DNA of 64,000 bases, taken from NCBI RefSeq assembly GCF_030297155.1, contig NZ_AP028068.1, positions 1,984,001 to 2,048,000 on the forward strand. The letters are read 5' to 3'. Source of the DNA: Vibrio sp. FE10 (lineage in GTDB: Bacteria > Pseudomonadota > Gammaproteobacteria > Enterobacterales > Vibrionaceae). The notes under the pieces are model-generated. The model ran no database searches, had not been told where the DNA came from, and saw only the letters and a list, made by a program, of their open reading frames with translations. Both the position numbers and the translations under genes were made by a program. Below, piece after piece: positions 1-17,682 of the stretch (the first letter of the stretch is position 1; every line of letters starts with the position of its first letter).

Positions 1-3000
1 CCTGACCATTGAAGTTTTCGTTTGGTGCAAAGCTGCATGTACCATCACCATTTACCGTGAAGATACCGTCTTCCCCATCGTAATTGATACCGACAAGCTC
101 GACGTCACCTTCTACGTCTGAAGCATTCACTAGAATCTGAGATTCACTGAACGTTAGAACAGAATCTTCATCAATGGTGTAAGACGTTGGCCCTGCAACA
201 GGTGGATCGTTCACTTCAAGAACGGTAATGCCTGCTGTGGTTTCATCAATTGCACCCTCTTCATCTGCAACAATCACATCAAGGCTGATATCACCACTGA
301 AGTTTTCATTCGGAAGGAAGGTGTAGCTACCGTCGCCGTTATCTTGGAACACACCATCTGTGCCACTGTAGGTCACGCTATCAACCGACACCGCGCCTTC
401 AACATCCGAAGAGTTCGCTAGTAATTGCTCATCAGAAATGGTGATCGCATTGTCTTCATTCACCATGTAAGAGGTAGAACCCGCAACTGGCGGATCGTTC
501 TCAGGCGTCACGCTCACATCAATGTTTGCGCTAACTGTTTCTGTGCCATCAGAGACATCGAAACTGAAGTTCACATCACCATTGAAGTTTTCGTTTGATG
601 CAAAGGTATAAGTACCATCACCATGGTCTGTTAATACACCGTCACCACCTGTGTAGCTGATGCCTTCTACTGTGAGGTCATCGCCATCAATATCGGTGGC
701 ACCGGTAAGCAGGTCCGCGTCAGTGAATTGCAGCGTACCGTCTTCTTCAATGCTGAATTGTTGGTCTTGAGGAACCGGTAAATCATTAACAGGATTAACG
801 GTTAAGTCCGCGGTAGCTTGAACCGTGTCAGTACCATCTGTGATGTTGAATTGGATATCAACGTCACCATTAAAGTTCGCATCAGGAACAATGGTGAAGC
901 TACCGTCATCATTGGCGGTTACTGTCGCGTTGCCATCAACCGTTAGGTCGCTCGCAGTGAGGTCATCGCCCTCAACGTCAGATGCTTGAGACAGCAATTG
1001 TTCTTGGCTCAAGGTAATTGAACCGTCTTCGTTAACGTTGTATGCCAAATCACCCGATACTGGTGCATCGTTAATTGGCAGAACATCGACGTTGATGACC
1101 GTATCAACTTCTGCACCGTCTTCATCACGAATGGTCACATCAAGTTGAACTTGGCCATTAAAGTTTTCATTCGGTGCAAAGCTACAAGTGCCGTCACCAT
1201 TTACAGAGAAGATGCCATCTGGGCCGTCGTAGCTAATGCCGACAAGCTCAACATCTCCTTCGACATCAGAAGCGTTAAGTAGCACTTGTGACTCACTGAA
1301 TGTAAGTACAGAGTCTTCATCAATGGTGTAAGACGTTGGGCCAGCAACTGGCGGATCGTTCACTTCAAGTACGGTGATACCCGCAGTTGTCGCATCGGTC
1401 GCGCCCTCTTCATCAGCAACCACAACATCTAGGGCGATTTCACCATTGAAGTTCTCGTTTGGCGAGAAAGTGTAAGTGCCGTTACCATTAATTTCAAGGA
1501 CACCGTCACTACCAGAGTAAGTCACGCTGTCTATTGATACATCCCCTTCGATATCAGAAGAGTTCGCCAATAGTTGTGCATCAGAAATGGTAATAGAGTT
1601 GTCTTCATTAACCGTGTAAGACGTAGAGCCCGCCACTGGCGGATCGTTCTCTGGAGTCACGCTAACATCAATGTTTGCAGACACCGTATCGGTACCATCA
1701 GACACATCGAAGCTAAAGTTCACGTCGCCATTGAAGTTTTCATTTGGCGCAAAGCTGTATGAGCCGTCACCATGGTCTGTAAGTACCCCATCAGTCCCTT
1801 CGTAACTGATACCTTCAACTGTTAAATCATCACCTTCAATATCGGTTGCGCCTGTAAGCAGGTCTGCATCGGTAAATTGTAGAGTTCCATCTTCTTCAAC
1901 ACTGAATTGTTGATCTTGAGGAACGGGCAAGTCATTGATTGGATTAACGGTTAGGTCAGCAGATGCTTGAACCGTATTCGTACCATCTGAGATATCGAAG
2001 CTGATATCGATGTCACCATTAAAATTCTCATCCGGAGTAATAGTAAAGCTGCCGTCTTCGTTCTGAGTGACTGTTGCGTCACCATCAACCGTTAGGCTAC
2101 TTGCAGTTAGGTCATCGCCTTCCACGTCAGATGCTTGAGAAAGCAGTTGCTCTTGGCTTAGACGGATAGAGCCATCTTCATCGACTGAATAAGCTAAATC
2201 ACCAGAAACTGGCGCGTCATCAACTGCGGTTACGCTTACATCGACGTTCGCTGAAACCGTATCGGTACCGTCAGACACATCGAAGCTGAAGTTTACATCG
2301 CCATTGAAGTTCTCGTTTGGAGCAAAGGTGTAAGTACCATTGCCGTTGTCGGTAAGAATACCGTCACCGCCATCGTAGGTAACCCCTTCAACAGACAGGT
2401 TGTCACCTTCAATGTCTGTCGCGCCGGTTAGCAGGTCAGCATCGGTGAAGATGAGCGTGCCGTCTTCTTCAACACTGAATTGTTGATCTTGAGGAACAGG
2501 CAAATCATTAACTGGGTTAACCGTCAGATCTGCAGAGGCTTGAACCGTGTTGGTACCATCGGAGATATCAAAGCTGATATCGATATCGCCATTGAAGTTC
2601 TCATCTGGCGTGATGGTAAAGCTGCCATCGTCGTTTTGAGTAACGGTCGCATCACCACCAACCGTTAGACCACTAGCAGTTAGATCATCGCCTTCAACAT
2701 CTGATGCTTGAGACAGTAGTTGCTCTTGGCTTAAGCGAATCGAACCGTCTTCATCTACCGAGTAAGCTAAGTCACCCGACACTGGCGCATCATCAACCGC
2801 AGTTACGCTTACATCGATGTTTGCTGAAACCGTGTCAGTACCGTCAGACACATCGAAGCTGAAGTTTACGTCACCATTGAAGTTCTCGTTTGGCGCAAAA
2901 GTGTAAGTACCATTACCGTTGTCGGTAAGAATACCGTCGCCGCCATCGTAGGTAACACCTTCAACAGAGAGGTTATCGCCTTCAATGTCTGTCGCACCTG

Positions 3001-4024
3001 TTAATAGGTCGGCATCGGTGAAAACAAGCGTGCCATCTTCTTCTATTTCAAACGTTTTACCTTCTGGTACCGGTGCGTCATTAATAGGACGAACCGTTAA
3101 ATCAATTGCGCTGCTTATTGTTTCTTGACCGTCACTGATATCAAAAGTTAGATCAAGTTCGCCATTAAAATCTGCAGAAGGAACAACAGTGAAAGTGCCA
3201 TCACCATTATCTTGAACCGTTGCATCTGCGCCAACTTGAACATTTGAAGCAACCAATGCATCGCCATCAACATCACTTGCGTATTCGAGTAATTGTTCTT
3301 GAGTGAATGTTATGGAACCATCTTCATCCATGATGTAAGCCAGGTCTTGTTCAGCTTCTGGTGCATCATTTTCGCTTTCTACTTTGATTTTGAACGTTTC
3401 GCTTACCGTCTCTGAATCAAAGTCGTCTTCTACTTCACTGATGGTCTCTTCGTCAGAAGCTTGAACATCAACGGCGAATGTCTCTTCTACCGTCTGTGAA
3501 TCTAAATCATCACCGACTTGTTGGTCGTCTGACTCAGAAGATGCAGCACTTGGAGCTGCAGACGTACGTGCAGCTTGGCCTTGCTCTTCGTTACCTTCAG
3601 CGCTCGAAGCACCTCCAGAACCTGCGGCATTTTCGCCACCGACAGCTTGAGCGCCAGCACCCGCTCCGCCGCCACTACCAGCTGCATTATCTGAGCCGGC
3701 TTCAGAAGCCGCACCGCCAACTACATTGGATTGGGCTGCATCTGAGTCTCCATCGCTTTCTGGTGTCTCTTCTTGAACAGCCGCACCAGAAGCCGATGCT
3801 TCTTCCGCATTACCTGCACCACTTGGATTGTCTTCCAACGCTTGGTTAACTTCGTCTGCTGCATCCGTATTTTCAGCACCCGTCGCTACCGTCGACGCAA
3901 TCGTGTTCTGTTGATTTTGTTGATTCTGCTGTTGGGAGGGCGTACCCGCGTCGTTCGTGTCCGTCTGTTCTACCGCGTCATTGAGATCTTCATTTTGGTT
4001 GTTTTGGTTATTTTCGCCTGCCAT
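1..4024 (-). CDS. Giant tandem-95/cadherin-like repeat adhesin, N-terminal part (runs off the window)
   Basis: The reading frame is open from an ATG at 4024 to the left edge (about 1340 codons, no stop), so only the N-terminal part is present. The first ~200 residues are low-complexity and acidic, rich in Asn, Gln, Glu, Ala, Gly and Ser, with two NAAGSGG stretches and no Sec signal peptide. Then come twelve visible cadherin-like (tandem-95) units of about 95-96 residues. Each carries an ND(A/L/P)PV junction, an EDG or EDN turn, D(V/I)EGD, NGDGTYTF and PNENFNG motifs. Proteins of this kind are Ca2+-stiffened surface adhesins exported by type I secretion, and a secretion operon is divergently encoded next door. 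The C-terminal secretion signal and any ligand domains lie outside the window. The family is clear; ligand and full length are unknown. Confidence 0.9.
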   Translation of the reverse strand, partial: MAGENNQNNQNEDLNDAVEQTDTNDAGTPSQQQNQQNQQNTIASTVATGAENTDAADEVNQALEDNPSGAGNAEEASASGAAVQEETPESDGDSDAAQSNVVGGAASEAGSDNAAGSGGGAGAGAQAVGGENAAGSGGASSAEGNEEQGQAARTSAAPSAASSESDDQQVGDDLDSQTVEETFAVDVQASDEETISEVEDDFDSETVSETFKIKVESENDAPEAEQDLAYIMDEDGSITFTQEQLLEYASDVDGDALVASNVQVGADATVQDNGDGTFTVVPSADFNGELDLTFDISDGQETISSAIDLTVRPINDAPVPEGKTFEIEEDGTLVFTDADLLTGATDIEGDNLSVEGVTYDGGDGILTDNGNGTYTFAPNENFNGDVNFSFDVSDGTDTVSANIDVSVTAVDDAPVSGDLAYSVDEDGSIRLSQEQLLSQASDVEGDDLTASGLTVGGDATVTQNDDGSFTITPDENFNGDIDISFDISDGTNTVQASADLTVNPVNDLPVPQDQQFSVEEDGTLIFTDADLLTGATDIEGDNLSVEGVTYDGGDGILTDNGNGTYTFAPNENFNGDVNFSFDVSDGTDTVSANVDVSVTAVDDAPVSGDLAYSVDEDGSIRLSQEQLLSQASDVEGDDLTASSLTVDGDATVTQNEDGSFTITPDENFNGDIDISFDISDGTNTVQASADLTVNPINDLPVPQDQQFSVEEDGTLQFTDADLLTGATDIEGDDLTVEGISYEGTDGVLTDHGDGSYSFAPNENFNGDVNFSFDVSDGTDTVSANIDVSVTPENDPPVAGSTSYTVNEDNSITISDAQLLANSSDIEGDVSIDSVTYSGSDGVLEINGNGTYTFSPNENFNGEIALDVVVADEEGATDATTAGITVLEVNDPPVAGPTSYTIDEDSVLTFSESQVLLNASDVEGDVELVGISYDGPDGIFSVNGDGTCSFAPNENFNGQVQLDVTIRDEDGAEVDTVINVDVLPINDAPVSGDLAYNVNEDGSITLSQEQLLSQASDVEGDDLTASDLTVDGNATVTANDDGSFTIVPDANFNGDVDIQFNITDGTDTVQATADLTVNPVNDLPVPQDQQFSIEEDGTLQFTDADLLTGATDIDGDDLTVEGISYTGGDGVLTDHGDGTYTFASNENFNGDVNFSFDVSDGTETVSANIDVSVTPENDPPVAGSTSYMVNEDNAITISDEQLLANSSDVEGAVSVDSVTYSGTDGVFQDNGDGSYTFLPNENFSGDISLDVIVADEEGAIDETTAGITVLEVNDPPVAGPTSYTIDEDSVLTFSESQILVNASDVEGDVELVGINYDGEDGIFTVNGDGTCSFAPNENFNGQ
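11..3400 (-). repeat. Tandem ~288-bp units within the adhesin gene, with higher-order duplication
   Basis: The gaagtt-like codons of the PNENFNG motif recur at about 11, 309, 584, 872, 1160, 1448, 1733, 2021, 2306, 2594, 2879 and 3167, mostly 285 or 288 bp apart. The units are of four sequence types. Four consecutive types (A-B-C-D, from position 11) recur about 1149 bp further on. The C-D pair then recurs twice more at 573-bp spacing. This indicates duplication of whole multi-unit blocks, not only of single units. Confidence 0.85.
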
Positions 4025-4210: not shown

Positions 4211-4573
4211 ATGATGATAGACATGACGAATTTGTTGCGTTCAATCGACAACGACCACAAGGGGCTGCAATTGCTGTTAGGAGACTTTTATAAGGACTTT
4301 TCGGACGCACCAATGAACATAGAGACACTTCATAAAGGGAATCGTTTTGACGAACTCAACAACTACTCTAAAAAATTGAAGACTATCTTAACGTTGTTAT
4401 GTGACCAAGACCTGCCGCCAAAAATGGCCAAGCTAGAACATTTGAGCAAACACGAGTTCCCTGCTCCAGAAGCGCTTTTAGAGGATGTAAAAACTGAACT
4501 ACAAAACGTCAATCGACAAATCAATCACTTGCTGGATATTAAGGAAGTGGTCGATGACAAGTCATCGAGGTAG
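4211..4573 (+). CDS. Small HPt-like protein lacking the phosphorylatable histidine
   Basis: 120-residue, mainly helical, soluble protein, first gene of the secretion operon; the next gene starts 3 bp after its stop. The pattern LLLGDFYKDF, then FDELNNYSKKLKT, then a late helix ending near LQNVNRQINHLL resembles a histidine-phosphotransfer (HPt) four-helix bundle. In HPt domains the core is A-H-x-L-K-G. Here the matching residues are S53-K54-K55-L56-K57-T58, so the phospho-accepting His is Lys. If the homology holds, it cannot relay phosphate and may instead bind a receiver domain such as that of the kinase-like protein two genes downstream. Translation could also start at the second ATG (4214). 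The HPt assignment comes from reading the pattern by eye and is moderate. Confidence 0.6.
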   Translation: MMIDMTNLLRSIDNDHKGLQLLLGDFYKDFSDAPMNIETLHKGNRFDELNNYSKKLKTILTLLCDQDLPPKMAKLEHLSKHEFPAPEALLEDVKTELQNVNRQINHLLDIKEVVDDKSSR

Positions 4574-4576
4574 GTC

Positions 4577-5926
4577 ATGAGTAATAACCAAATAGAGCAC
4601 CACCTCAGAAAAGCACTCGTTTCTAATAACGAGGCTTCGAAGGTGACGGCAGATGACACCATCGTACTTGCAAGTGCCATGACCAGCGTTCATAAAACCT
4701 TGCTCATCATATTCCTACTCGCTTTGGTCGCGATCGCCGTTGCGTCACAGGCGCGCATCGACATTGTCGTTTCTGTGCGTGGTGAGCTGCTGTTGGAATC
4801 TGACGTCGAGAAGGTTCAACACTTAGAAGGCGGCATTTTAGAAGAGCTGTTAGTCAGAAAGGGGGAAGTTGTGTATGAAGGTCAACCTATTGCGCGAATC
4901 CGCTCACTCGACCGCAACACCCAACTCGATACCGTGAACACCGAAATCATTCAGTTGGAACTCGACAAGATTCGTTATGAAAGCTTGCGCGACATGATCG
5001 AACCAAACTTTGCTTCTTACATCGAAAAGTTTCCAGAACAAGTTCAGGTCAATATGAATACGTGGCAACAAGAGTTTTCGAAAAACCGCTCCAACGAAGA
5101 GCTCATCACCCACGATATCAAACACAAAAATTCGCTTATTAACTCAATGTTTAAACGTCGTAAAAGTTCAGAGAACCAACTCTCACTCATTCGTAAACAA
5201 CTCAACATCAAAAACACGCTGTATAAAGAAGAGATGGCGTCCTATGTAGACGTTCTCAATATGAAAGTACAAGAGTCCAATATGGTTCGTGAGATTGAAA
5301 ACCTTGATGAGTCGGTCATGAACGAACGTTTCCAACTCGACAAACTCGAGAAACAACATCGAGATTTGGTTGAAAACCGTAACTCCGAGTACCAAGCGCA
5401 AATCATTCAGGCCAATAAAGATCTCAAACTGAAACGGATCCTTCAACCACAACATTCTGACAAGGTTGATCGCCTGATCGTCTACTCGCCAGTGGATGGT
5501 GTGGTCGACAAATTACACTTCAACTTCCGCTCTGCGGTAATACCACCCGGCGAGAGCATCGCTGATATTGCACCAATCAATAACTCCCTACACGGTGAAG
5601 CGAAGATCCCGCGTAAAGACATGGGGTTTGTTGAAATTGGCCAAGCGGTGAAAGTAAAAATGGATACCTATAACTTCGCAAAATATGGATTTGTTGAGGG
5701 AACCATCGCCTCAATCAGCCGTTCATCCTATGAGGAAGAAGATGCTGAATTCTATTTGGCAGAGATTGAAATTGACCGAAACTTTCTTGAACGAGGAGGC
5801 ACTCAATACAAGCTATCACCTTATATGGAATTTACCGCAGATGTAAAAACAGGCTCACGTCGCGTGATCGAATACGCAGCGAAACCTGTGATGTCAGCGA
5901 TCGAAGATGCATTCGATGAGAGGTAA
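4577..5926 (+). CDS. HlyD-family membrane fusion protein of type I secretion
   Basis: 449-residue periplasmic adaptor that would link the inner-membrane ABC transporter to the TolC-like channel. It has a cytoplasmic N-terminus of ~35 residues and one membrane segment (about residues 38-58). The first lipoyl half-motif follows (VQHLEGGILEELLVRKGEVV), then a long alpha-helical hairpin (about 100-290), the second lipoyl half (DRLIVYSPVDGVVDKL), and a C-terminal beta-barrel with the family-typical GFVEIGQAVKVKMD segment. Length and order match LapC/HlyD-type adaptors. It sits 3 bp after the HPt-like gene and 3 bp before the kinase-like gene, so translation is probably coupled. Confidence 0.93.
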   Translation: MSNNQIEHHLRKALVSNNEASKVTADDTIVLASAMTSVHKTLLIIFLLALVAIAVASQARIDIVVSVRGELLLESDVEKVQHLEGGILEELLVRKGEVVYEGQPIARIRSLDRNTQLDTVNTEIIQLELDKIRYESLRDMIEPNFASYIEKFPEQVQVNMNTWQQEFSKNRSNEELITHDIKHKNSLINSMFKRRKSSENQLSLIRKQLNIKNTLYKEEMASYVDVLNMKVQESNMVREIENLDESVMNERFQLDKLEKQHRDLVENRNSEYQAQIIQANKDLKLKRILQPQHSDKVDRLIVYSPVDGVVDKLHFNFRSAVIPPGESIADIAPINNSLHGEAKIPRKDMGFVEIGQAVKVKMDTYNFAKYGFVEGTIASISRSSYEEEDAEFYLAEIEIDRNFLERGGTQYKLSPYMEFTADVKTGSRRVIEYAAKPVMSAIEDAFDER

Positions 5927-5929
5927 TCA

Positions 5930-8161
5930 ATGAGCGGAAAACCTTCTTACAACATTTCCGTACCAGCTCTGCGTCTGAGCATCTTGTTTAGCGTGGTTCT
6001 GGCTGCGTTCGCTTTCTATTTATACTTTTCTTGGTCAAAAGTAGATTCGGTTGCGCAAGTGCAAAGCGCCCCACTTCTGATACAAGCCCAAAAGCTCAAT
6101 CAGACCATAGAATTTGATATTCAAACCTTGCAGCACTGCTTAAAAGCCAACAACTGCAGTACCCGTGACTTTAACCTGTCTACTTTGAAGAATGAGATTG
6201 ATGAATTCCGCTCTTTAGCCTCTTTGAACAAAACCGAATTCAGTTTGGTTGGTGCGACCGAATACACCCAACTTGAATTAGCTATGAATCGCTTTTCCGA
6301 CAGCGCTAAAACACGCAATGACATACTCGACTTATACCTATCGCTGACGAACAACTACCTACAGATGGATGACAACTATCGCACCATGTTTAACAACCAT
6401 GCGAGCGACTTAATGTCAGAGAAAAATGAGTTCTTTGTCTGGTTGTTTATGGTGGTCGTGATATTGGCCGTGATTGCCGTTTTTTCTAACTCAGTTGCCA
6501 TGTTGAAACTGAAGAAATCCAGCTCTAACGAGCGAGAAATCGACTATGAGTTTGATGCCCTGTATCAAGAGCTAAAGGAACTCGATTTACAAAGACTCGA
6601 AGAGCTTCTTAATGAAGTGAGCATCAACCCCAAACAACGCCAAATCTACTCTCACCTCAAGTTGATCTTCAGTAAATTGGAAGACCAAAAGCGCAATAAC
6701 GACCTCTACAAACAACTATACGCACTGATTGGCTACGAGATACGCGGAATCACCAACACCATCAACGGTGGTGTCCAATATCTGGTTCAAGAAACCGATG
6801 AAAACGGCGTATTGATGGCGAAGGATATTACCTCTGCATGTAGTACCTTGTCTGAGTTAGCAGAAAACTATAACCGTTTGATTTCACAGGGTACGGAAAG
6901 TAAGTCGAAGGAGTTCTCTCTACTGAACGTGTTGTCTGAATTGATGATTCATATCAGCGCCAAAGTTCAGAGAAACGAAGGTCAACTTGACTGCTTTATC
7001 TCTGACAACTTGCCGAACCGTGTGGAGGGCCAATCCACCAGCTTATTCTGGATCTTGTTCCTGCAGCTTTCTAACGCAATCCAGCTTAAATCAAACAAGA
7101 AGTTATTCGTGACGATAGAGTCTGGCGCGGCTTCGGATATGGAAAATACGCGTGTCACCATCAATCTCAACTTCCTTTCAACGTTGGATGTCTCTGTAGC
7201 TAAGCTCAATAAGCTCCATTGGAGCGATCATAAACACCATACTGCTAACACAGACGACTTAGCGAAAAGCGTATTAAAAGATTACGGGTATTACGAAAGT
7301 CACTGGTTCCAATCGGGTACACAAGAACGTTTTCAGATTGAGCTTGATCTTAAGGCGAAGAATTTCCATACAGAGAAAACTCGGTTCGACGGCAAACGTT
7401 TACTGCTGTGTGCCAATACTCAAGTTCGTATCGATGTAATGAAGAAAATGCTCAGCAACTTGGGGCTTGATATCACCGAAATTCGCACTGCCAATGAGTT
7501 ATTTTCGGCGGCAAAAACCTTCGGTGAGTACGATGCCATCATGTTGACCGACACCTTTGAACCCAACAAATTACCGTCACTGAGTAAAACAGTAAAATCT
7601 CAACTTAAGAGTCACCCAAATACCAAGCTATTGTTGTCAGTAACCAATACTCAGCATGCACAAGAGTGTCACAGCTTCGTCGATAAGATCATCAACTCCC
7701 CTGCGATTCCTTATGAGTTCATCCCTAACTTGCTCACCATTATGGAAGCAGAAGCATCAGAGGAACAGATGGAGAACAGTTCGTTCCTTATCGTAGAAGA
7801 TGACCGAGTTCAGCAAATCTTACTTAAACGAATTCTGACCAAACAAGAGTATGAACCAGACACGGTTGGCGATGGTGCCGACGCAGTGGAGCACTTCATG
7901 AATAAACGTTCTGACATCATCTTCATGGACTGCATCATGCCAGGTATGGGCGGCATAGAAGCGACCAAACGCATTCGCCAGTTTGAACAAGAAAACGAGA
8001 AAAACCCTTGCACCATCATAGGTGCAACCGCATTGACCAGCAGTAACGAACACCAGGCTTGTATTGAAGCCGGAATGGATTACGTGATCAGCAAACCTTA
8101 CAAAAGCGACCAAATCATTAAGGTGATCAACAAGTATGTGGCGGTACAGAAACTTAACTAG
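5930..8161 (+). CDS. Degenerate hybrid sensor kinase with C-terminal receiver, embedded in the secretion operon
   Basis: 743-residue inner-membrane protein with one membrane segment at about 12-32, a periplasmic region and a second segment near 165-185. The cytoplasmic part resembles a hybrid kinase, but the H-box reads LIGYEIRG (about residue 268), with Tyr where HisKA has the phosphorylated His. An N-box-like QLSNAIQL is visible, yet the G-boxes are not recognisable. A first receiver-like region (about 486-600) has LTDTF where the phospho-Asp loop should be. The last receiver (about 624-743) is intact: acidic EDD, phospho-Asp in IIFMDCIMP, Thr in GATAL and Lys in SKP. It therefore looks like a pseudokinase whose receiver could be phosphorylated by another kinase. 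Its end overlaps the TolC gene by 26 bp. Its presence inside a secretion operon is unusual. Confidence 0.75.
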   Translation: MSGKPSYNISVPALRLSILFSVVLAAFAFYLYFSWSKVDSVAQVQSAPLLIQAQKLNQTIEFDIQTLQHCLKANNCSTRDFNLSTLKNEIDEFRSLASLNKTEFSLVGATEYTQLELAMNRFSDSAKTRNDILDLYLSLTNNYLQMDDNYRTMFNNHASDLMSEKNEFFVWLFMVVVILAVIAVFSNSVAMLKLKKSSSNEREIDYEFDALYQELKELDLQRLEELLNEVSINPKQRQIYSHLKLIFSKLEDQKRNNDLYKQLYALIGYEIRGITNTINGGVQYLVQETDENGVLMAKDITSACSTLSELAENYNRLISQGTESKSKEFSLLNVLSELMIHISAKVQRNEGQLDCFISDNLPNRVEGQSTSLFWILFLQLSNAIQLKSNKKLFVTIESGAASDMENTRVTINLNFLSTLDVSVAKLNKLHWSDHKHHTANTDDLAKSVLKDYGYYESHWFQSGTQERFQIELDLKAKNFHTEKTRFDGKRLLLCANTQVRIDVMKKMLSNLGLDITEIRTANELFSAAKTFGEYDAIMLTDTFEPNKLPSLSKTVKSQLKSHPNTKLLLSVTNTQHAQECHSFVDKIINSPAIPYEFIPNLLTIMEAEASEEQMENSSFLIVEDDRVQQILLKRILTKQEYEPDTVGDGADAVEHFMNKRSDIIFMDCIMPGMGGIEATKRIRQFEQENEKNPCTIIGATALTSSNEHQACIEAGMDYVISKPYKSDQIIKVINKYVAVQKLN

Positions 8162-9560
8162 CAGCATTATGGCTGCGCTTGTATTCAGCACAACACCTTC
8201 AGCATCGGCAACGACCCTGCTTGAGGCAGTAGAACTCGGCCTGCAAAACAGCCTGTCCCTTCGCGCCAGTGATAAAGGTGTGGAAGAGAACGAATACAAC
8301 ATTGGGATCAGCCGCTCTAAATTTCTTCCTTCGCTTAATGGCGCTGCCGATACCACATGGAATGAAAACGAAACCTTGTTATCGAGTGTGCCTGATGAAA
8401 CCTCAAGCTATAACTCAAATAGCTACAGCCTTTCCCTTTCGCAATCGGTATTCAACCTAGGCGATATTTTCAAATACGGAACGGCAAAGCTCGACTTCAA
8501 TATCGAAGAGATTAAACACGAGAATAAAATCCAAAGCACCATCTCTGAAATTGGCTCACAGTACTTTGAGTATTTGAAAAACAACGCACAGATAAAAGCG
8601 ACCAAGGTCGAACTTAAATCGTCTGAGACGCGTGAACATCAGATGCGACGAAACGTAGAGTTAGGCAACACAGCCGCTAGTGAACTGTACGAAGTTATCG
8701 CTCAGAAAGAAGGAGTCTCGAATCGATTAAGAACCTTACAGAAAGACCGTAGAGTCATTCTCAACGGGCTATCGATTCAGATTCAATACCCTATCACTCC
8801 GTCGCAAGATATATACGAAAGCGTGCCATTAAAAGAGATTAGCGAAAGTGAACAGCGCTCAATCATGGATCAAGCATTAAAGCTCAACAACGACTTGTTA
8901 GTGGCGAAAAAAAACGTCGAGAGAAGCCGGAGAAGCTTAAAAGAGAGTGGTACAAACTTCTTACCTACCGTGTCGCTTTCAGCCAGTTATCGTCACGATG
9001 ACGCCAATAACTACGATAAAACCGACATCACTGCGACAGGCGAAAGTAACTCTACCAGTGTTGGCTTGAATCTAGCCTTGCCTATTTTGTCTGGTGGTTC
9101 TGATTATTACGGATATCAAAAATCATCGACAGCGATTGAACGTACCGAGCTGCTTTATCAAGATTCGCTTTACGCCACACGCAACAGCGTGAACACATCT
9201 GTGCTCAACATTAATGATTTCTCGCAATCTATCAGCAGTTACGAAAACATCATTCGCGCCAACTACGCCTCGTACAAAGGTATCCAAAGGGCTTACCAAT
9301 TAGGCACGCGTACGATCACCGATTTATTGGCCGCCGAAAGTAAACTGTTCAGCGCCTTAAGAGACTATGAAAGCGCACGATACGACTACATCATCGAAAC
9401 CATCAAGCTTGAGCAAGTTAAGGGCGTACTCTCGATTCAGTCAATTCAGAGCATCATGCAATTAATGAGTGATATTGAAGGGCGAAACAATCAAGAACTC
9501 GTGCCGAAACACCTTCTCTCAACGGAGTCGTTGAAAACAGGAGGTCGCAATGCAAACTGA
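8136..9560 (+). CDS. TolC-family outer-membrane channel protein for type I secretion
   Basis: 474 residues with an N-terminal signal peptide ending near SASA-TT (about residue 25). Two OEP-type repeats follow, with the typical LLEAVELGLQNSLSLRA start, long coiled-coil helices and beta-strand segments (YSLSLSQSVF; VGLNLALPILSGG). The final helix includes AYQLGTRTITDLLAAES, a strongly conserved TolC/LapE pattern. It would form the trimeric exit channel for the adhesin. The ATG at 8136 overlaps the kinase-like gene; starting at the later ATG (8169) would remove the basic n-region, so 8136 is preferred. A GGAGG site inside its 3' end serves the next gene, which it overlaps by 11 bp. Confidence 0.92.
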   Translation: MWRYRNLTSSIMAALVFSTTPSASATTLLEAVELGLQNSLSLRASDKGVEENEYNIGISRSKFLPSLNGAADTTWNENETLLSSVPDETSSYNSNSYSLSLSQSVFNLGDIFKYGTAKLDFNIEEIKHENKIQSTISEIGSQYFEYLKNNAQIKATKVELKSSETREHQMRRNVELGNTAASELYEVIAQKEGVSNRLRTLQKDRRVILNGLSIQIQYPITPSQDIYESVPLKEISESEQRSIMDQALKLNNDLLVAKKNVERSRRSLKESGTNFLPTVSLSASYRHDDANNYDKTDITATGESNSTSVGLNLALPILSGGSDYYGYQKSSTAIERTELLYQDSLYATRNSVNTSVLNINDFSQSISSYENIIRANYASYKGIQRAYQLGTRTITDLLAAESKLFSALRDYESARYDYIIETIKLEQVKGVLSIQSIQSIMQLMSDIEGRNNQELVPKHLLSTESLKTGGRNAN

Positions 9561-11136
9561 GCAATTTTCTCAAAAGATCAATATGGCAGATAAGTGTTAT
9601 CTGACTTTCTCTACGATAATTTCCACCCTGTTTGGCTTGGTACTGCCCTTCTCTATTCTGATCATTTTTGACCGAGTGTTACCCAACCAAGCACAAGATA
9701 CGTTGTTCTTATTGTTCGCGATTATCTTGATTTCCATCTTCCTTGACTACCACCTGAAAAATCAGGAAGAGAAGATATCTTCCGTCATCATGAGGCAGTT
9801 TGAGACCAACTTAACCAACAAGGTGTTTCAATCCATCTGTTTGGCTGAAATCTCTAAATTCCGCCGTTTAGAACCGGGGGAATACTTAGAACGAATCTCA
9901 ACCATTCCGGAGTTGAAAACCTTCTTTGGCGGAGAATCGGTTCGAGCCCTTATAAATCTTGCTGTCAGCGTGATAACCATCCTGATTATTGGCCTTATCA
10001 ACATATGGGCTGGCGTGACGCTTCTGATTGCCTCGCTCATCTTAGCCATTTTCGCTTGGAGCCTTTCTAAACAAAAGATTGGCAGCTTACAAAACAAGTC
10101 AGACATAGAAGGCTTAACCACTTCTAAAATTATCGAGATCATCTCTAGCCCGCTGGATATCAAAGCGCGAAATATGGAATACCGCGTTGAAAGCCTGATG
10201 ACACAAATGGTGGAAGAGCGTGAAGTGGAGAACATCAAATACGAACAGATTGAATCGAACTTCGGCTTGATCTTGGCGCTCATCCAACAGCTTTCCATTG
10301 CTTGCGTTGTTGTAGTACTAGCAACCGCCGTTATCAACATGGAATCAAGCCAAGGCATCATGGCCGCGATCATCATGCTGACCAACCGTTACTTCGCGCC
10401 CTACCAACAAGTGATGCGTACCGCGAGCCGTTGGGAATTAAACAAACTCCATATACAGCGTATTGCCGAGCTTCTTGAACTGGCAGCGTCTGTTGAACAT
10501 CAACATGAGACAACGGAAGTAGAACGTATTTCTGTCAAATACTCTGAAAAGCAGCGTATCGAATTCGAACTCGGACAAGCCTATTTACTGACCGGGAAAA
10601 GTGGCACAGGCAAGACCCATCTCGCCAATTGTATTACGCGGCAGAACAGCGATAACAAACTGGACATCATGATTAATGACACGCCTCTGGATGACGTGAA
10701 CTACAACGTTTGGCGTAACAGCGTGCTGATGGTCGATAAGACAAGTTCATTCGTGGAAGGGACCATTATTGATAATCTAACTTGTTTTCGACCAAGCCTG
10801 AATAACACGGCTTTCGCCTTATGTGAAACCATGAACATCAAGGCACAGATTGATGGGTTGCCTGCTGGTTTCTATACCGAACTGAAAGGACACATGCGTA
10901 ATCCATTCTCTCGCCAAGTTGGGTATGCTCTGTTATTAGTCCGTGCCCTGCTCGCCAGTAAACGCGTATTGATATTCGACGACATAGACTGCGTCTTCGA
11001 TGAAGAATTTGCACGCGTCGTTCTCACTAGCACCGCCTATCGTGCCAATGACAAGATCTTAATCATCGCCAGCAATAAAATGGACAAACTCAACCACCGC
11101 CTCAAACGTGTCAAGCTTACGGGAGGTGACCAATGA
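9550..11136 (+). CDS. Type I secretion ABC half-transporter with degenerate ATPase motifs (first subunit)
   Basis: 528 residues: a membrane domain with about six segments (residues 15-300), then a nucleotide-binding domain. Walker A is intact (GKSGTGKT, about 347-355). Walker B reads LIFDDID, with Asp where the catalytic Glu belongs; the LSGGQ signature is replaced by NPFSRQ; and the switch His is Ser (IIASNK). It has no N-terminal C39-like domain. The next gene encodes a second, different half-transporter, so the pair probably forms a heterodimer, as in the RtxB/RtxE system of V. cholerae. This subunit probably binds but hydrolyses ATP poorly. Start ATG 9550 is preceded by GGAGG. Confidence 0.88.
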   Translation: MQTEQFSQKINMADKCYLTFSTIISTLFGLVLPFSILIIFDRVLPNQAQDTLFLLFAIILISIFLDYHLKNQEEKISSVIMRQFETNLTNKVFQSICLAEISKFRRLEPGEYLERISTIPELKTFFGGESVRALINLAVSVITILIIGLINIWAGVTLLIASLILAIFAWSLSKQKIGSLQNKSDIEGLTTSKIIEIISSPLDIKARNMEYRVESLMTQMVEEREVENIKYEQIESNFGLILALIQQLSIACVVVVLATAVINMESSQGIMAAIIMLTNRYFAPYQQVMRTASRWELNKLHIQRIAELLELAASVEHQHETTEVERISVKYSEKQRIEFELGQAYLLTGKSGTGKTHLANCITRQNSDNKLDIMINDTPLDDVNYNVWRNSVLMVDKTSSFVEGTIIDNLTCFRPSLNNTAFALCETMNIKAQIDGLPAGFYTELKGHMRNPFSRQVGYALLLVRALLASKRVLIFDDIDCVFDEEFARVVLTSTAYRANDKILIIASNKMDKLNHRLKRVKLTGGDQ

Positions 11137-13271
11137 GTATCCTAGTTGACTTCAACAATGTGCCGCAGCGTGTATTGGATTTTGAATCAAGTGGTTATGA
11201 TGAACGCTACGGTCAGTCACCGCTGATTCGTGGCTTAGCCTACACCTTGATAGCACTCGAATGGGAAGGCACGCCTTCTATACTCAGTGACGCTTTTATT
11301 CCTAAGCCAAAAGACAGCGACAGTTTTACTGCGACCATAGAGCGTCTTGGATACCGCTGTGATGTGACCAAGCTAAAGACTCTCGAGAATATCGATCAGT
11401 ACCCTCACCCATGCTTTATTGAGATAGAGAACCTTAGCGCCATTTTCTTAGGTACTAAGGATGGAAAGTTACTCCTGTTTGATTACACGAACAACAACAC
11501 CATTGAATACCCAATGTGTAAAAAGCCCTGTTTGCTGATTTCGATTAGCGAATATTCTCGTCTATTCCGCGAACCACCGCCGGAATCGCAAGACAGAAGC
11601 AATTGGATAAAATACGCTTTCTATCGTTACAACAATGAACTTAAAAGCCTGATCATTCTCAGCTTCGTCATCAGTATTCTCGGTGCATTGCAGCCATTCT
11701 TTATTATGAGTGTGTATAACTTCGCGCTCACTTCGAGTTCTCAAGCCACACTCTATTGGTTAACCTTATTTGCCATTATTGTTGGCTTCTCGGAGTATTT
11801 CTTCAAAAAGATGCGGGTCAACATCATTGCCACGTCCGGTAAAGATCTCGCCGTGCACATCTCGCAAGCCGTAATATCGAAACTTCTCTGGCTACCTTAT
11901 GCGATGACATCAACCGCTGGGGTTTCGTCGCAGTTGGCTCGTTTGAAAGATATCGATACCTTCCGACGCTTAGTGACCGCAGAATCAACGCTTAGCTATT
12001 TTGATATGCCATTTGTGATTGTATTTATCATCGCGATTGCCCTGATGTCGGGTACGGCAGCGCTTGTAGTGATGGGTGGCTTAATCTTGATGTTGGTGTT
12101 CTGTGTGTATTCTCGCTATATCTACTCGCAAGCCACATCCAAAAGCTCGCGCGCCAATGCGATGGTCTCGTATCAATGGAATGAAATCCTTCGTGGTATC
12201 AAAACTATCCAAGGCCTGCCTTTACTTCGTGTCGTTCAATCTCGATTCAGTGCTTCACATATGCAAAGCACCAGTGATGCCGAGAACGTTGCCGTGACTA
12301 ACAGTAAGATTCAGGCCGCTGGCGGCAGTTTGATTCAGGTAATTGGTACCGCAAGTATCGTGACCGCAGTAATCGGCGTAATGGAAGGGACTTCTGATGC
12401 TGGTGCAATGCTCGCGACAGTGATATTGGTTTGGAAGGCGTTAGGTCCGATCATGGGTATCTACAACTCAATTTCTAAATTCCAGTCGATTAAGGCTTCA
12501 TCAGCACAGATCAATAACTTAATGTCGATGAATGACGATAAACTGACCTTAGAGAAGAGCCCGCCTATTCGCTTGTTCCAAGGTAGTATTGTTGGCAGTG
12601 GTGTCAGTCATCGTTACACAGGAGCAGCAACCGGCTTAACTAACTTGGGGTTCAAAATACCACCCAGTGCAAAAGTGGTCATTTGTGGCCCTACGGGCTG
12701 CGGAAAAACCACCTTAATTTCAATCATTGCTGGGCTAGAAGACCGCTATCAAGGCGCAGTTTCTGTCGATGGTTACAACATTAAACAGTTCAATAGCTAC
12801 CGTTATCGCACCTCAATTAACTACATCCCTTTTAACCTGCATATTTTTGAAGGCTCACTAGAAACCAACTTCATTCTGCATAACGGACTCATTCCAACAG
12901 AGAAGATGCAAGAGATGGTGAGCTTCTTCGAACTGGACGAATGGCTACCAGAAGGCTTAGCCACTCAATTGAGTGTCGATAAGTGCAAAGGTCTTCCAAA
13001 TGGAATTCAGCAAAAACTTCGTTTGGCCCTTGGCTTAGGTAACTGTGAGCAATCTCTGATAATCATTGATGAGCCCTTCAACGGTGCCGAGCAGGAAAAC
13101 GCGCAATACTTTAACCGTTTGTTCAGCGATAAGTTGCTGAATAAGACAGTCATTTTTTCGACCAATGATCCCGGCTTAATCGCCACATCCAACATGAGTT
13201 TGGTTCTAGAGCCAGATGGAAACTTGAAATATTTTGGCTTAACAGACAAATACTTAAACAGTTTGAGCTAA
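11133..13271 (+). CDS. Type I secretion ABC half-transporter with C39-like domain (second subunit)
   Basis: 712 residues. An N-terminal C39-peptidase-like domain (about 10-125) lacks the catalytic Cys: the usual DCG region reads YGQSPLIRG. It is therefore a substrate-docking, not a cleaving, domain. A six-segment membrane domain spans about 165-450. The nucleotide-binding domain has Walker A GPTGCGKTT (about 519-527) and Walker B LIIIDEPF with the catalytic Glu present. The signature is altered (GLPNGIQQ in place of LSGGQ) and the switch His is Thr (IFSTND). It overlaps the previous gene by 4 bp (ATGA), with a strong GGGAGGTGA site, implying coupled translation. With the HlyD and TolC proteins it would export the adjacent adhesin. 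Confidence 0.9.
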   Translation: MSILVDFNNVPQRVLDFESSGYDERYGQSPLIRGLAYTLIALEWEGTPSILSDAFIPKPKDSDSFTATIERLGYRCDVTKLKTLENIDQYPHPCFIEIENLSAIFLGTKDGKLLLFDYTNNNTIEYPMCKKPCLLISISEYSRLFREPPPESQDRSNWIKYAFYRYNNELKSLIILSFVISILGALQPFFIMSVYNFALTSSSQATLYWLTLFAIIVGFSEYFFKKMRVNIIATSGKDLAVHISQAVISKLLWLPYAMTSTAGVSSQLARLKDIDTFRRLVTAESTLSYFDMPFVIVFIIAIALMSGTAALVVMGGLILMLVFCVYSRYIYSQATSKSSRANAMVSYQWNEILRGIKTIQGLPLLRVVQSRFSASHMQSTSDAENVAVTNSKIQAAGGSLIQVIGTASIVTAVIGVMEGTSDAGAMLATVILVWKALGPIMGIYNSISKFQSIKASSAQINNLMSMNDDKLTLEKSPPIRLFQGSIVGSGVSHRYTGAATGLTNLGFKIPPSAKVVICGPTGCGKTTLISIIAGLEDRYQGAVSVDGYNIKQFNSYRYRTSINYIPFNLHIFEGSLETNFILHNGLIPTEKMQEMVSFFELDEWLPEGLATQLSVDKCKGLPNGIQQKLRLALGLGNCEQSLIIIDEPFNGAEQENAQYFNRLFSDKLLNKTVIFSTNDPGLIATSNMSLVLEPDGNLKYFGLTDKYLNSLS

Positions 13272-13378: not shown

Positions 13379-13753
13379 ATGTACACATTCGTTGCAGACA
13401 AGCTTGATGTAGCTTACTTATCCGCAATTCCTGAAAACCATCAACTTCAGGACTGCGATGTTCCTGAAGAGGAGATCGAACTTCGAGAGATCGTTGAGGT
13501 TTGGTATGAGTGTGCCTTTCTCCCTGCTTTCAATCTTCAGAAAATCAATATCGAGAACAAAGCTGAGCTAACCGTCGTACAAACCCATGTTTTGAGCAAC
13601 GATACAAATACGCTCGCTTTCCTACTCAAAAACAGAGTGTACCGCGCTGCATTGAACAGAATGCTCGGTGTTTGGGCGTTAGAACCCTCGGCAAAAACCG
13701 TGTTAGAGCAACTCCTATTTGAACTAAGTCTCGATAAAAATCGTCCTCATTAA
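13379..13753 (+). CDS. Hypothetical acidic 124-residue protein after the secretion operon
   Basis: I do not recognise this protein. It is soluble, with no signal peptide or membrane segment. The N-terminal half is acidic (CDVPEEEIELREIVEVWYE); the C-terminal half looks helical (NRVYRAALNRMLGVWALEPS). An AAGGAA ribosome binding site lies about 6 bp before ATG 13379. The 107-bp gap from the last transporter gene leaves open whether it belongs to the operon or has its own promoter. Its position suggests a role with secretion or with the following kinase, but nothing in the sequence proves it. Confidence 0.6.
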   Translation: MYTFVADKLDVAYLSAIPENHQLQDCDVPEEEIELREIVEVWYECAFLPAFNLQKINIENKAELTVVQTHVLSNDTNTLAFLLKNRVYRAALNRMLGVWALEPSAKTVLEQLLFELSLDKNRPH

Positions 13754-13955: not shown

Positions 13956-16900
13956 ATGGATCCTTATATGGCGATTACGGTCTGGAATAACCTTTCAGTC
14001 AAACATAAACTCTTTGGCTTAGTTCTACTTCCCATTTCTTTACTACTCTTCCTTGCAGGCAGGCAGGCGTATTTCTTAACCACTCAATTGACAGATTTCG
14101 AGAGAACCAGTCAGTTATCGGTGTATCTCGAAGATATTTCGGTGTTATATCGAAGCTCATTTGCCTCCAATCCAGAAGAGTTTACCCAACAAAGTAATCA
14201 AGTCAGCGCAGAATTGAAAACACTCTCCCCAAGTATTTTCCTAGGCGCTTCCAATAGCATTAATCAGCTGGTTTCTGACTTTAACGAAGCCACCCTCTCT
14301 ACGATGGAAGCAACAGACAGCTACGACAAGTTGGATGCTCTTGAATGGCAAAGTGACTTGTTCAAACAGCTACTCCTAGAAATTGAAAAAGTCCCATTCG
14401 AAAACACCAAGCGCGAAATTCAACAACACCTTACCGCGTTACAACAGCTTGAATGGCTGATGTTCTGGTCAAACGAAGAGTTCAAACTGGGCACTTCACT
14501 TATCGAAATCTTCCAAAATAGCCAAGAATACGACCCAGAACTTGCAGAGCAAATTGCAACCTTGAGTCAAAGACAGCAACTGTTTTTAGAACGCTTCGTA
14601 TCTTTGAATGCCAACGAGCATCAAGTGTCTTTAATGGTCGAAGTGTTCAGAAGTGATGTGTTCGCACAAAGCCAAGAAATCAGAAGTGCCCTGCTCGACT
14701 TAACGGCTATCAGCCAACTCACTCCGCAAGAGATTTCAGTGGGGCTTGAAGCAATGAGCGCCAGACTTAACTTGCTGCAAAATCTTGGTGGTGTGATCAA
14801 ACAAGAATTCCAACAAGAAGTTGGACAAGCTATCTCTGATGCTCAAATGCAACGAACGCTATTCATCTCTATCGTTGCCTTGCTTGCGACAATTGTTATG
14901 GGATTAACCCTAAGCTTGGCACGACAAGTCACCAACAACCTGAATTTGGTGTTGGCTTTCTTGAAAAGCGAAAATGATGAAACCCGCCCTTCTTTGGACA
15001 AACTGATTCAAGGCAAAGATGAACTCAGCTTATTTGCACAGCAAGTAGAACGACTCACCATCGAACGAGAACACGCAAAAGAGAAATTAACCTTAGCCGT
15101 AGAAGACGCAGAGAAAGCCAAAGACCACGCAATACAAGCCAGTAAAGCGAAGAGTAGCTTCTTGGCGAACATGTCTCATGAAATTCGAACGCCGTTAAAT
15201 GGTGTAATTGGTATCTCAGAGATTCTTTCAGACACACCACTAACACCCACTCAAAGAGATTACGTTGATACTATCGAAACCTCTTCTCAACTGCTTCTGA
15301 GCTTGATAAACGACATACTAGACTTCTCTAAGATCGAATCAGGGATGCTATTGATCAATCCTCATTCCGCTTCCATTCGAGAGTCTATCTACGACATCGC
15401 TTCAATCGTCGCACCCAAAGCGAAAGAGCAAAAAATCACAATTAACGTCGACATTAGCTCAGACACTCCAGCAAGAGTGATGATCGATGACCACCGATTA
15501 AGACAGATCTTGATGAACTTCATGTCCAACGCCGTGAAGTTTACCGCTGAAGGTGGTGTGACCTTAACTATCAAGACCCTCAACAGAACAGAGAATAACG
15601 TTACCATTCGATTTGCCGTTCAAGACAGCGGTATTGGTATTGATAAACAGCAACAGAAACAGATATTCGAACCTTTCGCTCAAGAAGATGATTCAACAAC
15701 AAGACAGTTCGGTGGTACCGGATTGGGCTTAGCGATCAGTACTCAATTAGTCGAATTAATGGGCGGTCAGATTCAATTGGACTCAGTCAAAGGTGAAGGC
15801 AGTTGTTTCTATTTCGAACTCGATTTACCTATTGACTTAAACGTGCCAAAACCAAGCCAGGCGACTGCCGATATCTACATCCTTGGCGGAGACAACGAGT
15901 TATCACAACGCATTGAAGGAGACCTCAACTTCTATGGCTTGCAAGTCGCGCAAATAACCAATGATGCCTCGGTCATTACTGATAAGTTTGCAACACAGCC
16001 ACACAGTAAACCGATCACCGTCATTTTTGCCGAAGATAGTGCTTTCCATGCAAGCGACTACACGAATGATTTAAATCGTTTACATGATAACGGCATTACG
16101 ATTTGTCTAATTCGCTCATTCCTAAGTGACCCAGCAGACATAGGTAATTGTATTACCGCACAAGTCTCACAGCCACTTCTGGGTTCACGTTTAATCAAAG
16201 CGGTAGAGTTGTGTGACACTCAAGGTTTAGCCGAGCTATCGGAAAGCAAACAAGAAGCTGCGCCGACCCAACAAAAAATCCTGATTGTTGAAGACAACAA
16301 GATCAATCAGAAAATAGCTGGCCTACACGTTGGTAAAAGTGGGTTTGAGTTTGAATTTGCGAATAACGGTCAAGAAGCTGTCGACATGTTCAGCGCCAAC
16401 CCACACTACGCAGCAATCTTGATGGATTGCATGATGCCTGTGATGGATGGCTTTGCCGCAACAGAGAACATCAGGCGTGTAGAAAAAGAGACCAAATCCA
16501 CGCGCCGTATCCCTATCATCGCCCTCACAGCCAGTGTGATTGACGATGATATCCAGAAATGTTTTGACGTCGGTATGGATGATTACGTTCCAAAGCCGTT
16601 CAAATTTGAAATGTTGAAAGAGAAAGTGCTAGCCGCGGTTGAAGCAATGCCATTACCCGCAACTGACAGTGGGTCACCTGCCCCAACCACATCAACGGTT
16701 ACCCCAATTCACACCGCAAACTCCAGTTCGACTACGAAGACTGGCACTTCAAATACGCCTACAGCCAACGTTAAACAAACGCTACCGGAAGCACCCGAGC
16801 AAAATACAGTGCCGAGTAAATCAGAAAGGATCCTTCTCGTTGAAGACAACAGAGTAAACCAAAAAGTCGCTTCGGTCATGTTAACTAAAGGAGGCTATGC

Positions 16901-17195
16901 CTTTGAGATTGCGGATAACGGACAAATCGCTGTGGATATGTACCAAAACGACAGCAGCTTCGACATCATTTTAATGGACTGCATGATGCCCGTGATGGAT
17001 GGTTTCACGGCGACCAGGGAGATAAGAGAACACGAGAAAAACTTAGGCTTAAATAAAACTCCGATCATCGCGTTAACCGCCAGCGTTATCGACGACGACA
17101 TTCAAAGGTGCTTCGATTCCGGCATGGATGGGTATGTGGCGAAGCCCGTTAGAAAAGAAAAACTCTTCCATCAAATTGAAAGTGCGACCTGCTAG
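13956..17195 (+). CDS. Hybrid sensor histidine kinase with two C-terminal receivers
   Basis: 1079-residue inner-membrane sensor. A first membrane segment (about 18-40) precedes a helical ~260-residue periplasmic domain of NIT-like appearance; a second segment lies near 302-325. A coiled coil leads into HisKA with an intact H-box (FLANMSHEIRTPLNG, about 405), then HATPase_c with N-box (MNFMSNAVKFT), DSGIGI and GGTGLGL. A degenerate receiver-like stretch (about 640-760) is followed by two complete receivers (about 773-895 and 950-1075). Each has EDN, LMDCMMP, ALTAS and KP, and they are joined by a Thr/Ser/Pro-rich linker. The second ATG (13968) is an alternative start. Genes for a PstS-like protein and a porin follow within 10 bp and 1 bp, so this is probably a ligand-sensing operon. 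Confidence 0.92.
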   Translation: MDPYMAITVWNNLSVKHKLFGLVLLPISLLLFLAGRQAYFLTTQLTDFERTSQLSVYLEDISVLYRSSFASNPEEFTQQSNQVSAELKTLSPSIFLGASNSINQLVSDFNEATLSTMEATDSYDKLDALEWQSDLFKQLLLEIEKVPFENTKREIQQHLTALQQLEWLMFWSNEEFKLGTSLIEIFQNSQEYDPELAEQIATLSQRQQLFLERFVSLNANEHQVSLMVEVFRSDVFAQSQEIRSALLDLTAISQLTPQEISVGLEAMSARLNLLQNLGGVIKQEFQQEVGQAISDAQMQRTLFISIVALLATIVMGLTLSLARQVTNNLNLVLAFLKSENDETRPSLDKLIQGKDELSLFAQQVERLTIEREHAKEKLTLAVEDAEKAKDHAIQASKAKSSFLANMSHEIRTPLNGVIGISEILSDTPLTPTQRDYVDTIETSSQLLLSLINDILDFSKIESGMLLINPHSASIRESIYDIASIVAPKAKEQKITINVDISSDTPARVMIDDHRLRQILMNFMSNAVKFTAEGGVTLTIKTLNRTENNVTIRFAVQDSGIGIDKQQQKQIFEPFAQEDDSTTRQFGGTGLGLAISTQLVELMGGQIQLDSVKGEGSCFYFELDLPIDLNVPKPSQATADIYILGGDNELSQRIEGDLNFYGLQVAQITNDASVITDKFATQPHSKPITVIFAEDSAFHASDYTNDLNRLHDNGITICLIRSFLSDPADIGNCITAQVSQPLLGSRLIKAVELCDTQGLAELSESKQEAAPTQQKILIVEDNKINQKIAGLHVGKSGFEFEFANNGQEAVDMFSANPHYAAILMDCMMPVMDGFAATENIRRVEKETKSTRRIPIIALTASVIDDDIQKCFDVGMDDYVPKPFKFEMLKEKVLAAVEAMPLPATDSGSPAPTTSTVTPIHTANSSSTTKTGTSNTPTANVKQTLPEAPEQNTVPSKSERILLVEDNRVNQKVASVMLTKGGYAFEIADNGQIAVDMYQNDSSFDIILMDCMMPVMDGFTATREIREHEKNLGLNKTPIIALTASVIDDDIQRCFDSGMDGYVAKPVRKEKLFHQIESATC

Positions 17196-17681: not shown

Positions 17682-17682
17682 C

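Follow-up and report, generated by a model that had tools for sequence, protein, structure and literature searches.

Introduction

Type I secretion systems (T1SS) are, to our knowledge, usually described as three-part machines without a dedicated signalling subunit. Signalling proteins with related features are known from other pathways: the hybrid histidine kinase ShkA works together with a histidine phosphotransfer protein (HPt), ShpA; LapD is a degenerate enzyme; RetS and GacS of Pseudomonas act by a mixed-dimer mechanism, RetS lying outside any secretion operon; and in the plant pseudo-HPt AHP6 the substituted residue is Asn. Here we analyzed a 64,000-nucleotide stretch of the 6.0-Mb genome of a marine Vibrio (hereafter the window), at whose left end a giant adhesin gene and an oppositely read T1SS operon are located. 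The operon encodes a pseudo hybrid histidine kinase, here called PHK, and an HPt-like protein without the phospho-accepting His. A preliminary description of this DNA had taken both for inactive proteins that might gate adhesin secretion.

PHK resembles DivL of Caulobacter, which has Tyr at the phospho-His position and, according to the accessible part of PMC4211667, employs its kinase core for sensing a phosphorylated receiver and not as a kinase. The same part reports that DivL Y550H autophosphorylates when stimulated, so the ATP site of DivL can work, and that its authors proposed signalling from the cytosol to the periplasm through membrane-bound kinases. The likeness is limited to the substitution and to how the protein is proposed to be used. 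The regulator bound by DivL, DivK~P, is a separate protein, whereas PHK has receivers of its own and is encoded in a secretion operon; moreover, PHK has no ATP boxes. With hybrid kinases of the ShkA/RcsC type PHK shares a dimerization and histidine phosphotransfer domain (DHp), a catalytic and ATP-binding domain (CA), a degenerate receiver 1 and an intact receiver 2, but ShkA is an active kinase. The linker of ShkA contains a DDR motif (PMC7010744, accessible part). This motif is not found in the linker between receivers 1 and 2 of the window PHK, and a ShkA-like cyclic di-GMP site in receiver 1 was rejected as far as this motif goes.

AHP6 inhibits cytokinin signalling (PMC3572949, accessible part). 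It belongs to a plant system, whereas the window-type pseudo-HPt is bacterial, carries Lys, Arg or Tyr, is encoded beside a T1SS and has a putative inhibitory role. LapD was described, in the available text of PMC3032545, as a receptor of the inner membrane through which a cytoplasmic signal reaches a surface adhesin. LapD reads cyclic di-GMP and leads to adhesin cleavage, whereas the input of PHK would be a phosphorelay and its gene lies within the exporter operon. In the RetS-GacS pair a hybrid kinase region, that of RetS, contacts another kinase, and such a contact is putative for PHK. We found no description of a pseudo-histidine-kinase in a T1SS operon in the open-licence library searched, which is not proof of absence; the accessible parts of PMC6134601, PMC6420764 and PMC12369385 do not mention a PHK-type T1SS, and that of PMC12153261 describes a different T1SS.

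Results

PHK and its exporter

An HlyD adaptor, a TolC channel and an ABC exporter encoded in one operon that adjoins a giant repeat protein identify the system as a T1SS. The operon is tightly packed from window position 4211 onwards, with 3 bases between hlyD and the PHK gene and a tolC start that overlaps the end of the PHK gene by 26 bases.

4211..4573, plus strand: pseudo-HPt of 120 amino acids (aa), with an HPt fold and Lys54 (codon 4370-4372) at the phospho-His position
4577..5926, plus strand: HlyD-type periplasmic adaptor (TIGR01843, 295 bits)
5930..8161, plus strand: PHK, pseudo hybrid histidine kinase, 743 aa
8136..9560, plus strand: TolC-type outer membrane channel (below the TIGR01844 cut-off, above the Pfam OEP cut-off)
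9550..11136, plus strand: ABC1, half transporter of a two-gene ABC exporter
11133..13271, plus strand: ABC2, the other half transporter, with additional N-terminal sequence
2..4024, minus strand: giant adhesin, N-terminal part; the gene continues past the left end of the window

The placement of PHK within a T1SS, as given in the preliminary description, applies far beyond the window. The gene order hlyD-PHK-tolC-ABC1-ABC2 was found in 46 of 48 loci, with broken genes taken as one, and the remaining two are contigs that end early. Among 247 sampled Vibrionaceae genomes PHK was detected in 57 (E<=1e-50) and ABC1 in 58 (E<=1e-45), and all 57 PHK-matching genomes also carry ABC1, both genes being broken in genome G011, where the whole operon has decayed (locus L118). 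The 58th ABC1 genome, G097, encodes a divergent PHK next to hlyD in the rearranged order ABC1-ABC2-hlyD-PHK, and PHK is accordingly present in all 58. At the level of the order ABC1 matched 5 of 247 genomes, each a PHK carrier, and a PHK profile (E<=1e-60) matched 15 of 394 genomes; among 369 genomes from the class it matched the window's own genome only. In the divergent locus L117, from a Psychromonas metagenome-assembled genome (MAG), the genes run hlyD-PHK-ABC1-ABC2, and no match to tolC was found between PHK and ABC1. A divergent open reading frame (ORF) of at least 350 aa lies upstream in 43 of 47 loci; those of L048 and L050 start unlike the adhesin. PHK is a standing component of one T1SS subtype, and its co-occurrence with ABC1 led us to reject the view that it is an optional passenger.

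Residues and domains of PHK

5954..6514, plus strand: two hydrophobic segments (about residues 9-36 and 165-195) with the enclosed part, from hydropathy, model and conservation
6692..6895, plus strand: DHp-like segment, residues 255-322, with Tyr269 (codon 6734-6736) instead of His
6908..7369, plus strand: CA-like segment, residues 327-480, without G1 or G2 box
7391..7747, plus strand: receiver 1, degenerate, residues 488-606
7775..8149, plus strand: receiver 2, intact, residues 616-740 (Pfam PF00072, 84 bits)

The pseudokinase features noted earlier were all recovered. The H-box has Tyr269 where an active hybrid histidine kinase has His, receiver 1 has no fixed acidic pair, and receiver 2 retains Asp624, Asp625, Asp667 (codon 7928-7930), Thr700 (Thr or Ser in the family) and Lys722. 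Moreover, DxGxG (G1) or GxGLG (G2) occurs in none of 59 CA regions of PHK rows, whereas the hybrid kinase encoded at 13956 has both. Pfam found the C-terminal receiver, with a HEF_HK stretch marginally below the cut-off; the matches listed by VIA-align for the whole protein are receiver domains only and are not informative on the other domains. The two hydrophobic stretches flank a presumed periplasmic helical part with conserved Cys70, Cys76, Lys101 and Gly108. The predicted structure is of moderate confidence (pLDDT 80, pTM 0.46). Conservation is highest in DHp and receiver 2 (mean majority fraction 0.69 and 0.71 versus 0.27-0.53 elsewhere, computed on 25 of 51 rows, those under 70% identity). 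This suggests docking between the two or of both on a common partner.

A protein search, which scored the 7997 candidates with most words in common, yielded 40 family members, a few of them short, from Vibrio, Aliivibrio, Photobacterium, Shewanella and Thaumasiovibrio, with sequence identity falling as low as 32%. All 41 rows of this alignment have Tyr269 and the receiver-2 Asp residues. In the same-species genome G147 PHK sits at the contig position of the V. lentus locus L005 and is 99% identical, which makes V. lentus the probable species of the window genome. A genome scan added further loci, including those of Psychromonas, an Oleiphilaceae MAG and a Micavibrio MAG. In this wider set, which includes near-copies (L116 duplicates L051), the H-box has Tyr in 54 of the 56 rows with a residue at this position, Phe in one (L048, Oleiphilaceae) and His in one (L117); two rows are gapped there, and the window row and its copy L001 were left out. 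Asp624, Asp625 and Asp667 are kept in 57 of 57 rows. The preliminary description had reasoned that His-bearing homologues would mark the copies of this strain as simple mutants. For PHK such a homologue was found in one row of 56, and a strain-specific mutation was rejected since the substitutions in PHK and in the HPt are both conserved among relatives. The protein at L117:4321-6645 (minus strand) is the sole PHK relative seen with an H-box His, and its kinase core is also not recognised by Pfam.

Judged by its residues, PHK is a pseudo-histidine-kinase. Without kinase residues it cannot make phosphate or forward it via a His, and the phosphate source for its intact receiver could only lie outside PHK. 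PHK might also be a phosphorylation-independent structural subunit, which the exporter holds for assembly and whose receiver is merely a fold. To this account, which would agree with the linkage to the transporter and with a kinase core devoid of key residues, we give very little credence, as the active site of receiver 2 is kept with its three Asp residues and in several other genera the operon begins with a gene for a His-bearing HPt.

The operon HPt

Structure prediction found the proposed HPt helical-bundle fold for the 120-aa protein of the window. Lys54 at the phospho-acceptor position was confirmed as well, so the His of H-x-L-K-G is missing. The protein has no Pfam Hpt (PF01627) match above the cut-off, which was passed by 7 of 7 His-bearing operon copies tested and by 0 of 3 His-less ones (7 of 10 overall). 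Across 56 distinct operon copies the phospho-His position holds 29 K, 25 H, 1 R and 1 Y. For this comparison ORFs outside 95-160 aa were dropped, among them the pieces in the Photobacterium-genus genome G085 (L108), where the operon HPt is split in two separate parts, as was one truncated copy of the distal HPt of the window genome (distal rows 27 to 26). The His-bearing copies come from Photobacterium, Shewanella, Psychromonas, Thaumasiovibrio, part of Aliivibrio and an Oleiphilaceae MAG, and the His-less form is confined to one Vibrio group, the V. splendidus and V. harveyi group. The view that both proteins are dead holds across the family for PHK, but for the HPt in this one Vibrio group only. 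With His in 25 of the 56 copies, the arrangement is more broadly that of an ordinary HPt next to a receiver-carrying pseudokinase, and a matched dead pair as the general state was rejected because the operon HPt bears His in several other genera.

In a protein tree, which has few columns, unsettled bootstrap and a midpoint root, 31 distinct pseudo-HPts form one group (99/89) with a long stem, and this group sits inside a larger one with Vibrio distal HPts (97/97). The median pairwise ratio of nonsynonymous to synonymous substitution rates (dN/dS) of the pseudo-HPts is 0.083 (14 sequences, 44 of 91 pairs usable), and that of their neighbours is 0.010 for HlyD and 0.034 for PHK (7 of 28 pairs each). 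These ratios indicate that the pseudo-HPt is under purifying selection, with weaker constraint than on HlyD and PHK. His-bearing homologues of the HPt do exist, but the pseudo-HPts are not simple mutants, since they form one tree group and the 14 tested are under purifying selection.

The pseudo-HPt could also be functionless and decaying, the operon HPt of Vibrio being a relic. No HPt gene lies upstream of hlyD in V. mediterranei-type and A. fischeri-type loci, a remnant with a stop is found at that place in G149 (G149:C2:875391-875531), and the dN/dS of the pseudo-HPt is above those of HlyD and PHK, all of which would be expected of a relic. Nevertheless, we regard this explanation as quite improbable, as the reading frame is open in 29 of 29 genomes of the V. 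splendidus and V. harveyi group and the median dN/dS is 0.083.

A second, standalone HPt

A second standalone HPt of the same family was found in 29 of 29 genomes with the pseudo-HPt, and His was read in all 29. Similarly, a second standalone His-bearing HPt is present in 10 of 10 genomes with PHK but without an intact operon HPt. Among 18 genomes with a His-bearing operon HPt it was found in one (G101). The searches used E<=1e-4 in one genome set, to which G000, G100 and G190 with the pseudo-HPt and the 10 genomes lacking an intact operon HPt belong, and E<=1e-18 in the other, with the remaining 26 pseudo-HPt genomes, and matches inside long proteins were not taken as standalone HPts. Four genomes were left out of the count: G085 (two-piece operon copy, no other standalone HPt), G097 (no standalone HPt), G519 (contigs of insufficient length) and G011 (decayed operon, His-bearing HPt elsewhere).

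The second HPt of the window genome (G000:C2:1964609-1964962) lies about 23 kb off, beyond the far end of the adhesin gene. It adjoins a 534-aa receiver protein, an RpoS-like sigma factor and a protein of the 124-aa family described below (G000:C2:1963032-1966860; L162, L163). Related clusters occur in other genomes, several of them with an EAL protein and a hybrid kinase. The A. fischeri-type locus L151, with EAL, sigma and divergent kinase genes, shows the arrangement of pdeV, rpoQ and VF_A1016 given in the accessible part of PMC12369385 and was matched by arrangement only; that part reports that pdeV and VF_A1016 inhibit biofilm. In the tree two Aliivibrio distal HPts cluster with A. sifiae operon HPts, which would be compatible with relocation. 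A third standalone His-bearing HPt of the family was seen on a short contig of the same-species genome G147 (L225, G147:C105:7700-8300).

The preliminary description had left a choice between external phosphorylation and phosphorylation-independent action. The former appears more likely for PHK because a second His-bearing HPt is encoded in the same genome. Of that interpretation, the pseudokinase in a T1SS with an externally phosphorylated receiver is retained, and the matched dead pair is given up.

Neighbouring genes

13379..13753, plus strand: 124-aa protein with no Pfam or NCBIfam match; relatives adjoin the second HPt and an RpoS-like sigma factor
13956..17195, plus strand: intact hybrid histidine kinase with HisKA, HATPase_c and two receivers, no HPt

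In the V. splendidus group, in A. fischeri-type loci and in a few others, a hybrid kinase is encoded downstream of the operon. This position would suit a role of PHK as sensor or scaffold only, in which its periplasmic part senses the assembled or working secretion complex and PHK tunes the hybrid kinase through mixed dimers in the manner of RetS-GacS, receiver 2 being a phosphate sink. Foldseek matches of the PHK model likewise include the RetS kinase region and the RetS-GacS DHp complex; kinase regions of ZraS and GacS are on the list too. However, PHK is conserved in V. harveyi loci and most Photobacterium loci, where no such kinase lies beside the operon, and we consider this role unlikely.

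The 124-aa protein belongs to a family of about 120 aa (window 13379-13753; L163:2507-2860; L153-L157) whose members are repeatedly found beside an RpoS-like sigma factor and a His-bearing HPt; from this neighbourhood, they could act on the sigma factor. Downstream of the hybrid kinase (window 17205-18750) a 158-aa protein without family match is followed by a porin-like protein. In the two-gene exporter (window 9550-13271) the ABC1 translation reads an apparently degenerate signature (RNPFSRQ) and DD after Walker B instead of the usual DE.

The complete adhesin gene encodes 6981 aa (G000:C2:1967079-1988024) and is read leftwards from 4024; its repeated units are presumably cadherin-like. Adhesin N-termini (window 3930-4024, minus strand; L005-L055) have a common short motif, LN-x-A-V-E, for example DLNDAVEQTDTNDAG. 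Of the 46 loci that have a long minus-strand ORF, 38 show the pattern, as does the divergent L099, and it is possibly a recognition or processing site.

Discussion

We are slightly more inclined to accept than to reject the reading that PHK reads a phosphorelay, from a kinase through an HPt to receiver 2, for a T1SS exporting a giant adhesin, and that the pseudo-HPt is a paralogue which has been kept and probably competes. Direct support comes from the family-wide loss of kinase residues, the conservation of the receiver, the linkage to the transporter, the HPt fold, the second His-bearing HPt and the purifying selection. From these we infer every transfer of phosphate, the sequence in which events took place, the way the signal runs and any effect on secretion. 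PHK would be a membrane-bound hybrid histidine kinase without its kinase residues, turned into a dedicated part of an adhesin-exporting T1SS subtype. The relay would start at a hybrid kinase, for which the kinase at 13956 is a candidate. It would continue through a His-bearing HPt, putatively the product of the first operon gene in Photobacterium, Shewanella, Psychromonas, Thaumasiovibrio and part of Aliivibrio, and in the window Vibrio the related HPt about 23 kb away, and end with the transfer of phosphate to Asp667 of receiver 2. The phosphorylated receiver would probably be read by the conserved Tyr-DHp of PHK itself, as DivL reads DivK~P, and the change would then cross the membrane to the periplasmic part of PHK beside HlyD or go to a partner kinase. 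In the V. splendidus and V. harveyi group the operon HPt has lost its His and been kept, in genomes that all have a related His-bearing HPt elsewhere. Most simply, the pseudo-HPt would be a non-transferring binder that competes for the receiver.

Several observations weigh against this phosphorelay reading. The genomes behind the complementary distribution of HPt copies are related to each other, and the searches that revealed it differed in their E-value threshold (two in all). A second HPt is also present in 8 of 21 PHK-negative genomes tried and must therefore serve other partners too, and 3 of 7 distal HPts tested are below the Pfam Hpt cut-off (4 of 7 pass). In the V. harveyi and most Photobacterium loci the operon has no neighbouring hybrid kinase, as mentioned above, and the divergent PHK of the Psychromonas MAG has His in its H-box. 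The PHK model is weak at the DHp, with a block of pLDDT 60-72 over residues 261-330, and its best Foldseek match in the PDB, full-length ShkA (E 1.6e-19 over 498 columns), reflects the domain order and not a rigid whole (TM 0.28/0.41, rmsd 18.2).

A more specific and rather doubtful proposal is that PHK is an inside-out phospho-reader in a single chain. Receiver 2, phosphorylated by the HPt, would dock on the Tyr-DHp and shift the periplasmic part, which would open or close the exporter at HlyD, and the pseudo-HPt would be a built-in antagonist. If true, a phosphorelay would gate a secretion machine directly, with no transcription involved. An inside-out reader at the exporter, as in the main reading above, is favoured in view of DivL, which has the same Tyr and senses a phosphorylated receiver.

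All 58 sampled genomes with this exporter subtype also have a pseudo-histidine-kinase, and this suggests that the export of giant adhesins, and hence attachment, is tuned by a phosphorelay. Moreover, a single HPt family occurs at one operon position in a His form, a conserved His-less form, as a fragment or not at all, which makes the role of bacterial pseudo-HPts directly testable.

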